This document shows, one piece after another, positions 29,633 to 50,658 of a stretch of DNA of 64,000 nt. Source of the DNA: an uncultured Ruminiclostridium sp. Lineage in GTDB: Bacteria > Bacillota > Clostridia > Oscillospirales > Ruminococcaceae. A program made the position numbers and the translations under genes. A model generated the notes under the pieces. The model worked only from the letters and a program-made list of their open reading frames with translations, did no database searches and was not told where the DNA came from. The stretch is taken from the NCBI GenBank assembly GCA_947594425.1, contig CANQED010000002.1, positions 126,364 through 190,363 of the forward strand, given 5' to 3'. Positions within the stretch are counted from its first letter, which is position 1. The number at the start of each line of letters is the position of its first letter.

Positions 29633-29654
29633 TTCACCCAAAAAATAAAAGCAA

Positions 29655-29942
29655 AAACCCGATCTCTTAAAAAATCGGGTCTTTGTTGTTTGAGAATGAG
29701 GAGAAAAATCTTTTCACAATATACCTACTTGTTTGCAGCGCTTATGGTTACAGCGCAGGCGGTATCTGCCGGAATGTCCGGCAGTCCGCCCGGAAGAATA
29801 AACATTGCTCAGTTTAAAGTCGGGGAGGGGTCGTACCGACGATTTGCTTAAAAGGTAGAATGGCGTTATAAGTCTTTGTAAAAAATATGTAATATTGAAA
29901 AGGAGAAGTTGATGTGATATTATGCTGTCTTTTTCTTCCTAC
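29655..29942 (-). ncRNA. Putative structured small RNA (or short-peptide mRNA) on minus strand
   Basis: Minus-strand TATAAT at 29954..29949, own terminator (ACCCGAT..ATCGGGT + TTTTTGCTTTT), internal GGCGG..GCCGG..CCGGC..CCGCC hairpin, and long closing IR CTTTTCAcAATATAC/GTAATATTGAAAAG. Confidence 0.4.
29657..29680. terminator. Bidirectional terminator hairpin
   Basis: ACCCGATctcttaaaaaATCGGGT with T-rich tract on the minus strand. Confidence 0.7.
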
Positions 29943-29975
29943 AATCAAATTATAACAGAAAAAATCCCAAAATGC

Positions 29976-30057
29976 AATTACAAAGCGGTTACAATGAGGT
30001 TACAATTCAGCAACAAATAATTACAAAACGGTTACAACGGTTACAAATCGGTAACAG
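29976..30057. promoter_or_regulatory. Helically phased direct-repeat array (consensus GGTTACAA, ~11-bp period, 8 units)
   Basis: Units start at 29976, 29987, 29998, 30009, 30019, 30030, 30039, 30050. Confidence 0.8.
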
Positions 30058-30093: not shown

Positions 30094-30122
30094 TTGCAAA
30101 ATAACGCGAAATATGCTATACT
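30094..30122 (+). promoter_or_regulatory. Predicted sigma-A promoter of guaA
   Basis: TTGCAA-17-TATACT with TGC extended -10. Confidence 0.65.
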
Positions 30123-30156: not shown

Positions 30157-31701
30157 ATGGTAGGACACGAAAAGGTACTGGTGATAGATTTCGGCGGGCA
30201 ATACAATCAGCTTATCGCCCGCAGAGTAAGAGAGCATAACATATACTGCGAGGTTTTTCCCTACAAAACGCCTATTGAAAAGATAAAGGCGGAAGCTCCC
30301 AAGGGCATTATTTTCACGGGAGGTCCCGCAAGCGTATATCTTGACAGCTCCCCGCATATCTCAAAGGAGATATTCGAGCTCGGCGTGCCGATACTGGGGA
30401 TATGCTACGGCGCGCAGCTTATGGTATATACTCTCGGGGGGAAGATAGGAAAGGCGGACGACAACTCGCTTGCGGAGTTTGGCAGGACGGAGTGCGACTT
30501 TGACGGCGACTGCGCGCTTTTTGACGGGCTGAAAGAGCGCTCGGTAGTTTGGATGAGCCACAACGATTACATAGAAAAGCTTCCCGACGGCTTCCGCGCG
30601 GCGGCTAACAGCGCAAAATGCCCCTATGCGGCCATAGAGGACCCCGCAAGAAAATTTTACGCCACGCAATTTCACCCCGAGGTAAATCACACCGAGCAGG
30701 GCTTTGAAATGTTGGGAAAATTCTTATTCGACGTTTGCGGCTGCAAGGGCGACTGGACGATGTCGAGCTATGCGGAGAGCGCGATAAAGGAGATACGCGA
30801 AAAGGTCGGAAACGGCAAGGTGCTGCTCGCGCTTTCGGGAGGGGTCGACAGCTCGGTAGCCTGCGCCCTTTTGTCAAAGGCGGTGGGCAATCAGCTGACC
30901 TGCGTATTTGTCGACCACGGATTTATGCGCAAAAACGAGGGCGACGAGGTGGAAAAGGCCTTTGCCGACTGGGACGTTAATTTTGTCAGAGTGAACGCGG
31001 GCGAGAGATTTATTAAAAAGCTCGAGGGCGTAAGCGAACCCGAGCGCAAGCGCAAGCTGATAGGCGAGGAATTTATCCGCGTCTTTGAAGAAGAGGCAAA
31101 GAAGATAGGCAAGGTGGACTTTCTCGTTCAGGGTACCATCTACCCCGACGTTATCGAGAGCGGCACGGGCGACGCCGCCGTGATAAAATCTCATCACAAC
31201 GTCGGCGGACTGCCCGACTATGTGGACTTTAAAGAAATAATCGAGCCGCTGAGGTTGTTATTCAAGGACGAGGTGAGAAAGCTCGGCATAGAGCTCGGGC
31301 TTGCCGACTATCTTGTATGGCGTCAGCCTTTCCCCGGCCCCGGGCTTGCCATAAGAATAATCGGAGAGATCACCCGCGAAAAGCTGTGCATCCTGCAAGA
31401 CGCAGACCTTATCTTCCGCGAGGAGATAGCCGCCGCAGGGCTCGACCGCGATATAAATCAGTACTTCGCGGTGCTTACCGATATGCGCTCTGTCGGCGTT
31501 ATGGGCGACGGCAGGACGTACGACTACACCCTCGCGCTGCGCGCCGTGACCACAAGCGACTTTATGACCGCGGACTTTGCAAGAATACCGTACGACGTGC
31601 TCGAAAAAGCGAGCGTGAGGATCGTCAACGAGGTGGGGCATATCAATAGAGTGTGCTATGACGTGACAAGCAAGCCGCCGGCGACGATTGAGTGGGAGTA
31701 A
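30157..31701 (+). CDS. guaA: GMP synthase (glutamine-hydrolysing)
   Basis: [48 protein letters not shown]. Confidence 0.97.
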
Positions 31702-43429: not shown

Positions 43430-43482
43430 TTACACATTCCTTTGCTGATTTTACATTCATTTTACAAACACACGATAACAAA
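43430..43482 (+). promoter_or_regulatory. Candidate Pho-box-like array upstream of pstS
   Basis: TTACAC 43430, TTACAT 43451, TTACAA 43462, ATAACA 43475; upstream of TATCAT/CATATA -10. Confidence 0.45.
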
Positions 43483-47572: not shown

Positions 47573-48250
47573 GTGAATATATTGATCTACTGCGTTGAAG
47601 ATGACAGCGGTATCCGTGACTTAATGATATATACCTTGAACGCCGCAGGCTTTGAGGCAAAGGGGTTTTCGGACGGAGCGTCCTTTTGGGAGGCGCTGCG
47701 TGAGTTTACCCCGGAGCTTGTGCTTCTTGATATTATGCTCCCCGGAGAGGACGGTATCAGTATCTTGAAACGGCTGAGGGAAAGCGGCAATAATGTGCCT
47801 GTTATTATGGCTACTGCCAAAGGGACCGAATATGACAAGGTGATAGGGCTTGACCTCGGCGCGGACGATTATCTTGCAAAGCCTTTCGGCATGATGGAAA
47901 TGCTGTCCCGCGTAAAAGCGGTGCTCCGCCGTGTTTCTCATGTTTGTCAAAGTGAGGTGTTATTGCACAGCGGTATACAGATGGACACGGCACAGCACAT
48001 TGTAACAGCGGACGGAACAAGGATAGAGCTTACCTATAAGGAATATGAGCTGCTGCGAAAATTTATGGAAAATCCCGGACGGGTGTTTACACGCGACCAA
48101 CTTCTCACAAGTATATGGGGCAACTCTTATATCGGAGAGACCCGCACGGTGGACGTTCATATCGGCACACTGAGGACAAAGCTGGGACGCTGCGGCGACT
48201 GCATTGAGACCGTGCGCGGCGTAGGTTATCGGTTAGGGGCGGAGAAATGA
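47573..48250 (+). CDS. phoB: PhoB-family response regulator
   Basis: Receiver LVLLDIMLPGEDGISIL plus winged-helix TYKEYELLRKFMENPGRVFTRDQLL; GTG start. Confidence 0.9.
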   Translation: MNILIYCVEDDSGIRDLMIYTLNAAGFEAKGFSDGASFWEALREFTPELVLLDIMLPGEDGISILKRLRESGNNVPVIMATAKGTEYDKVIGLDLGADDYLAKPFGMMEMLSRVKAVLRRVSHVCQSEVLLHSGIQMDTAQHIVTADGTRIELTYKEYELLRKFMENPGRVFTRDQLLTSIWGNSYIGETRTVDVHIGTLRTKLGRCGDCIETVRGVGYRLGAEK

Positions 48251-50061: not shown

Positions 50062-50658
50062 TCAAAATCGAAAGGAGAAATGTAAATTGCCGAAATTAAG
50101 TACGATAAGTTGTGTGGAAGCTGAACCGCTGAAACGGATATAATTTGTGGCGGTCAACCTTATCACGCAAGGACTGTTCATTCCTACTTCTATCATGTAC
50201 TCGAAAAGCGCCTCCGGACGGATAGCTTTACCAAATTCGATCGCTTCCTCGGGCTCAAGAGCATTGCCCGTGTCGGTTATAGGCGAGCCTATCTTCTTTT
50301 GCCGGCTTTTATTGAATATCTGATCACGGTCCGCCAGAAGTATATTGCTGACCAGATCCTCTATCCTCGCGGTGTGCCAGAGCTGCCACACCATAGGCAC
50401 CCTGTCAGCGCCGGCATAGTGAAGATCGGTCTCCCACGGCTGTCTTGGCACAAGGTCATTTTGGTGACCAGCAAGTATATACTCCGCCACATAGTCCGCC
50501 ATGGTTTTCTCGCTTCCGCCGGACACGCACGCCGGGTGCACAAGCGCGTGAAGCTGAAGTGCCAGAGATTTTACCTTCTCGGGGTCTCTCTTATCTAACG
50601 CCTCATGGAAAGCGGAGTTGACTGTATTGTAATTATCATAGAATTTCTGCTTAGTCAT
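50062..50658 (-). CDS. Hypothetical 198-aa protein, possibly DinB-like
   Basis: MTKQKFYDNYNTVNSAFHEALDKRDPEKVKSLALQLHALVHP...; fold inference tentative. Confidence 0.55.
   Translation of the reverse strand: MTKQKFYDNYNTVNSAFHEALDKRDPEKVKSLALQLHALVHPACVSGGSEKTMADYVAEYILAGHQNDLVPRQPWETDLHYAGADRVPMVWQLWHTARIEDLVSNILLADRDQIFNKSRQKKIGSPITDTGNALEPEEAIEFGKAIRPEALFEYMIEVGMNSPCVIRLTATNYIRFSGSASTQLIVLNFGNLHFSFRF

Follow-up and report, generated by a model that had tools for sequence, protein, structure and literature searches.

An eight-box phased array beside guaA is probably the switch of a previously undescribed non-coding RNA gene in an Oscillospirales genus

The 64,000-nucleotide stretch of uncultured Ruminiclostridium DNA analysed here, which we call the window, contains a phased array of eight short boxes (29976..30057, minus strand) next to guaA (30157..31701, plus strand; assigned from its open reading frame and orthologues). 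Our search recovered exactly the unit starts listed in the original prediction, 29976, 29987, 29998, 30009, 30019, 30030, 30039 and 30050. The description of these units as near-perfect was slightly generous: four of the eight are exact copies of GGTTACAA, two read AATTACAA and one GGTAACAG, and the last, AGCAACAA, is degenerate. On the minus strand, where the wording is TTGTAAC or TTGTTAC, the boxes are in order TGTTAC, TGTAAC, TGTAAC, TGTAAT, TGTTGC, TGTAAC, TGTAAC and TGTAAT. The steps between them are 11, 11, 11, 10, 11, 9 and 11 bp in plus-strand order (11, 9, 11, 10, 11, 11 and 11 in minus-strand order), and because the cumulative box positions deviate by no more than 1 bp from a 10.5-bp helical lattice, all boxes lie on one face of the helix, as had been proposed. 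In 5000 dinucleotide shuffles, no run of phased boxes was as long as the longest one in this intergenic region. The three-box pattern TGTWAH-N5-TGTWAH-N5-TGTWAH is matched by the array with 0 mismatches, and even when 2 mismatches are allowed only 0.2 matches are expected in the window.

The elements of a promoter lie at one end of the array. On the minus strand, the last box abuts a weak −35-like sequence, TTGCAT (29972..29977), which stands 17 bp before a −10 element with TG in front (an extended −10; 29949..29954). This element is a perfect TATAAT at 29954-29949, and it is the one that had been placed 21 bp from the array. Downstream is a predicted non-coding RNA of ~300 nt (29648..29945, minus strand), with its start estimated from the −10 and its end at an intrinsic terminator located by a terminator scan (29652..29685, minus strand); on the plus strand, the same palindrome may serve to terminate the atp operon as well. 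Beyond the other end of the array, a scan identified the guaA promoter, TTGCAA-17-TATACT (30094..30122, plus strand), whose −35 lies 36 bp from the array by our measurement, where 37 bp had been given.

A DNA search with the array and the minus-strand region gave matches, some of them weak, in 52 of the 71 genomes of an Oscillospirales genus and none in the other 19. There were often several matches per genome; nearly all lay within the array, and the best reached across the minus-strand −10. Read on the minus strand, the resulting promoter class can be written as (TTGTAACCNNN)n-TTTGTAATTGNATTT-N14/15-TATAAT, that is, TTGTAAC or TTGTTAC every ~11 bp, a terminal TTGTAACCGNTTTGTAATTGNATTT, 14 or 15 bases and TATAAT, with TTG(C/T)AT kept at the −35. 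Because these loci had been chosen by similarity to the array and the minus-strand region, we assembled an independent set of 37 stretches in public genomes (metagenome-assembled Ruminiclostridium, Eubacterium and Oscillospiraceae), chosen solely by 22 fixed bases at the array end. Of these sites, 35 have TATAAT, with at most 1 mismatch, at either of two neighbouring offsets; at any other offset it was found in no more than 7. Extra boxes were found at −11 in 29 sites and at −22 in 25. The fixed offset of the −10 in this independent set argues that the array belongs with the minus-strand promoter. Array and promoter architecture are conserved across the genus by sequence comparison; most of the genomes compared are metagenome-assembled, and all of our evidence is drawn from sequence.

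Orthologous eight-box arrays, with steps identical to those in the window (11-9-11-10-11-11-11) and the boxes in the same positions, are present in genomes G009, G030 and G035, where they adjoin an NlpC/P60 gene and not guaA. In G014, G024 and G031 the array also adjoins the NlpC/P60 gene, but it precedes a lipoprotein gene in place of the RNA. Many other copies precede short leaders followed by lipoproteins or small membrane proteins, and no Pfam family was found for the six of these proteins tested. We propose that the array is the operator of the minus-strand promoter, with an activator seated at the weak −35, and assign this explanation as a whole a probability of about 0.6. Activation is the natural reading because the last box touches the −35; in Staphylococcus aureus, activation accompanies WalR sites that precede the −35, in whichever orientation they lie (PMC10746227).

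The original prediction, of an OmpR/PhoB-type array with a period of ~11 bp tied to a promoter, is supported in this general form: similar arrays precede other genes, and a search for them was successful both in the same genome and in its relatives. In the former, boxes in the TTACAA orientation lie upstream of DUF348-G5-3D, LysM-G5 and WG-repeat genes, a count that is a lower bound because it comes from pattern and BLAST searches only. At the DUF348-G5-3D gene, four boxes spaced exactly 11 bp apart stand ~45 bp before TTGACA-17-TATAAT, an arrangement (L236-L243) conserved in eight relatives, in two of which the open reading frame filter missed the gene and the promoter is the same. Cell-wall genes, the expected company of a WalR-type regulator, are represented by the arrays upstream of DUF348-G5-3D, which are kept in relatives, and of LysM-G5. 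The window's own genome also has a six-box array at L140 2035-2093 (G000:C2, about 50534-50592), with steps of 11, 9, 11, 10 and 11 bp; it is flanked by a WG-repeat/zinc-ribbon gene on one side and a transglutaminase-like lipoprotein gene on the other.

The boxes and the distribution of candidate proteins both bear on which regulator would work the array. TGTWAH fits seven of the eight boxes, which also vary where it permits variation (base four is A or T, base six C, T or A), and the direct repeat TGTWAH-N5-TGTWAH that marks WalR operators is present. The genome encodes seven proteins with a Trans_reg_C domain. Among its OmpR-family two-component regulators, only the WalR-like L146 (G000:C11:53147), encoded on another contig than the array, occurs wherever arrays do. 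It is present in 68 of the 71 genomes, and no array matches were obtained in the remaining three (G043, G048 and G062); with 19 genomes matchless, this co-occurrence has a chance probability of ~0.017 if the genomes are treated as independent, which they are not. Sixteen of the genomes that encode L146 also lack array matches. Each of the four other full-length OmpR-family two-component regulators is missing or only distant in some array-bearing genome. L147 was rejected for want of a close orthologue in array-bearing G025, G021 and G030, and L144 and L148, each missing from or only distant in array-bearing genomes, were likewise set aside. An autoregulated response regulator was also considered and rejected, as no paired boxes were found in the ~1.5-kb flanks of Trans_reg_C genes in five genomes.

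The best NCBIfam model for L146 is YycF, with 209.7 bits against a cut-off of 340, and that for its partner kinase is WalK. The kinase has a HAMP domain and no PAS domain, a feature also reported for Clostridioides difficile WalK, from which the intracellular PAS domain is absent (PMC9210968). The L146 recognition helix, VDVNIRRLRMKIE, follows the pattern VDVN[IV]RRLRMK[IV]E and is nearly unchanged in relatives of ~60% identity. The WalR-like protein at G000:C11:53147 is most likely the regulator of the array.

The same promoter and RNA could instead be served by another binder, either the SARP-type protein L150 or an OmpR-family protein that is not the same one in every genome. SARPs bind heptamers phased at 11 bp, the period alone cannot tell regulator families apart, and each of the four array-bearing genomes tested encodes relatives of L150 at 35-72% identity. 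In SARP operators, however, the last box usually lies ~8 bp from the −10, and the corresponding gap here is 22 bp. Against any other binder stand the agreement of the boxes with TGTWAH down to its free positions, the recurrence of the same boxes at cell-wall genes and the preservation of the L146 recognition helix, and we regard this alternative as unlikely, if worth keeping in mind.

What the minus-strand promoter would produce was assessed in the window and in G009, G030 and G035. In all four, no convincing open reading frame with a ribosome site was found behind the array, and a terminator closes the transcript after ~300 nt. The four transcripts have in common a 5′ end GUAGGAAGAA, an ACCCCUC stretch, a UGCCGG..CCGGCA hairpin and, before the terminator, GUAUAUURUGAAAA..UUUUCUCCUC, of which UUUUCUCCUC is an anti-Shine-Dalgarno stretch. 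In the window, the conserved 3′ motif GUAUAUUGUGAAAAGAUUUUUCUCCUC, which includes such a stretch, was delimited by alignment and a covariance model to 29702..29728 (minus strand), and the region is predicted to pair with GUAGGAAGAA at the 5′ end of the RNA. When the 71 genomes were searched with a covariance model of the 3′ part, the four loci were recovered at E<1e-13 and the next best match was no better than 2e-3. The RNA folds better than shuffled sequences, with z-scores of −5.7, −5.4 and −5.0 including the terminator and −3.1, −4.8 and −1.7 without it, the last value (G009) being barely better than chance. This conservation amounts to three independent lineages, since G030 and G035 are nearly identical. 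No Rfam family reached the gathering threshold for any of 12 related loci, the window giving sub-threshold matches only, and a search of the literature on TTGTAAC arrays or small RNAs in this bacterial group found nothing relevant.

These features suggest that the eight-box array is probably the switch of a previously undescribed, non-coding RNA gene. Its product most probably acts in trans as a small RNA, through the pyrimidine-rich stretches UUCUCCUUUU, ACCCCUCCCC and UUUUCUCCUC, which would pair with Shine-Dalgarno sequences; part of the UUUUCUCCUC/UUCUCCUUUU pairing stretch is predicted to be engaged by the 5′ end of the same RNA. Within the predicted RNA, a weaker three-box TGTWAH-like run, TTATAAGTCTTTGTAAAAAATATGTAAT, is present with 2 mismatches at 29866-29893 (plus strand). 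A second set of apparently non-coding transcripts, of other sequence and behind the same kind of promoter, was observed in G064, G067, G058 and G068. Members of this family (L056, L057, L063 and L071, from another clade) have CGGGTGCRGGRCRG and CTGCTGCCG in common, and most end in CCTTCCTT before the terminator.

The RNA also contains a tiny open reading frame with a GTG start at 29672-29722 (minus strand), MKRFFSSFSNNKDPIF, whose counterparts are MKSCFFSSF in G030 and G035 and MKKSCFFSSF in G009, with in-frame insertions and deletions and no Shine-Dalgarno sequence. The transcript might accordingly be a small messenger for an MKSCFFSSF-like peptide and not a regulatory RNA, a possibility that draws on two features kept close to the 3′ end in the four genomes: a start codon, which is ATG except in the window, where it is GTG, and length differences of exactly 3 nt. 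The want of a Shine-Dalgarno sequence in front of the frame argues against translation, and in the window the frame reads into the terminator. The predicted pairing between the 5′ and 3′ ends accounts for the same conserved bases. We consider the small-messenger reading improbable.

It had also been suggested that the array could control either side. Only the minus-strand side is conserved; for the guaA side, close relatives in the genus retain TTGCAA-17-TATACT upstream of guaA and lack the array, so that guaA was rejected as the conserved target and is probably not one. A stronger form of this idea holds that the array chiefly controls guaA from upstream, as at the G5/3D gene, with the minus-strand transcript as a by-product. 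The orientation of the boxes and the 36 bp to the guaA −35 do resemble the conserved G5/3D arrangement (~45 bp), and S. aureus WalR has been reported to touch purine genes (PMC10746227). But the conserved guaA promoters of relatives stand without an array, the orthologous arrays elsewhere have no guaA beside them, and the fixed geometry is with the minus-strand −10, and we consider guaA as the chief target highly doubtful. Since orientation and distance match the G5/3D arrangement, an additional effect of the array on guaA may still occur in this one genome.

The regulator first proposed was the PhoB/PhoP homologue in the pst-phoU-phoB-phoR cluster of the same window (47573..48250, plus strand), which would bind the array and control guaA or the minus-strand transcript by phosphate. 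The array consists of OmpR-family-type repeats with an 11-bp period, as do Pho boxes, and WalR and PhoP boxes are akin in sequence, but the direct repeats of TTHAYA expected of a Pho box are absent: none of the eight boxes fits the Bacillus subtilis PhoP consensus, and even with 2 mismatches allowed, the three-box PhoP pattern was not found in any part of the window. G009 has the orthologous array, and G070 and G034 are rich in arrays, yet none of the three has an orthologue of the homologue at E≤1e-55. The sequence of the boxes and the phylogenetic profile thus led us to reject PhoP/PhoB, an assignment that now appears very remote, and to conclude that the array is probably worked by a WalR-type cell-wall regulator. 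Upstream of pstS, by ~85 bp, the window contains a different repeat, TTTACA-N5-TTTACA (43450-43466, plus strand), which is unlike the array boxes and is likely a Pho box for the homologue at 47573.

The arrangement that we favour, an activator-bound operator in front of a small RNA gene, has a counterpart in streptococci, in which the OmpR-family regulator CiaR acts through 11-bp direct repeats to produce csRNAs, which are short, end at a terminator and carry pyrimidine-rich segments complementary to ribosome sites (PMC8186281). Regulator-type boxes, a promoter, a terminator and an intergenic region free of open reading frames are likewise found together here, and as judged from sequence alone the repeats, the short terminated transcript and the pyrimidine-rich anti-ribosome-site stretches are all alike. 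In contrast to the csRNA promoters, the box is TTGTAAC rather than TTTAAG and there are up to eight boxes rather than two; the RNA, of ~300 nt, is unrelated in sequence and comes from another branch of the phylum. The operators of WalR (YycF) in Bacillota share TGTWAH-N5-TGTWAH with its free positions, the cell-wall targets and a WalR-like regulator common to the array-bearing genomes, but here the boxes number four to eight, steps of 9 and 10 bp occur at set points in the arrays, the targets include many lipoproteins as well as a non-coding RNA, and the regulator falls below the NCBIfam YycF cut-off. Pho boxes, too, are direct repeats in tandem with an 11-bp period, located upstream of the −35 or overlapping it; they differ in their consensus and in a regulator that is absent from array-bearing relatives.

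In the mechanism that we envisage, several phosphorylated molecules of an OmpR-family response regulator would bind the phased TGTWAC boxes, and those beside the weak −35 would recruit RNA polymerase to TATAAT at 29954-29949. The ~300-nt RNA would then be made, ending at the terminator at 29652, and its pyrimidine-rich stretches would pair in trans with the Shine-Dalgarno sequences of other mRNAs. If the regulator is the WalR-like protein, the RNA would belong with the lipoproteins and the cell-wall G5/3D and LysM-G5 proteins to one cell-envelope regulon. We hold with the same confidence as above that this is a two-component regulon in the style of CiaR and its csRNAs, including a new small RNA; activation, non-coding function, targets and the identity of the regulator are parts that we infer.

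More tentatively, each genome of these gut Oscillospirales may contain several long, helix-compensated arrays through which a WalR-type envelope regulator turns on lipoproteins together with lineage-specific non-coding RNAs. The same ancestral promoter would give an anti-Shine-Dalgarno small RNA in one clade where the sister clade makes a lipoprotein mRNA, and in the window there may be an action on guaA as well. Our analysis names a candidate for the regulator and indicates that the neighbouring phosphate regulator is the wrong one. If our favoured reading is right, the promoter code of a whole envelope regulon would be legible from sequence alone in little-studied gut bacteria, and that regulon would include a small RNA without an Rfam family. 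The promoter shared by lipoprotein and small RNA in sister clades would then make it practicable to study how a small RNA gene can arise behind a switch that was already in place.
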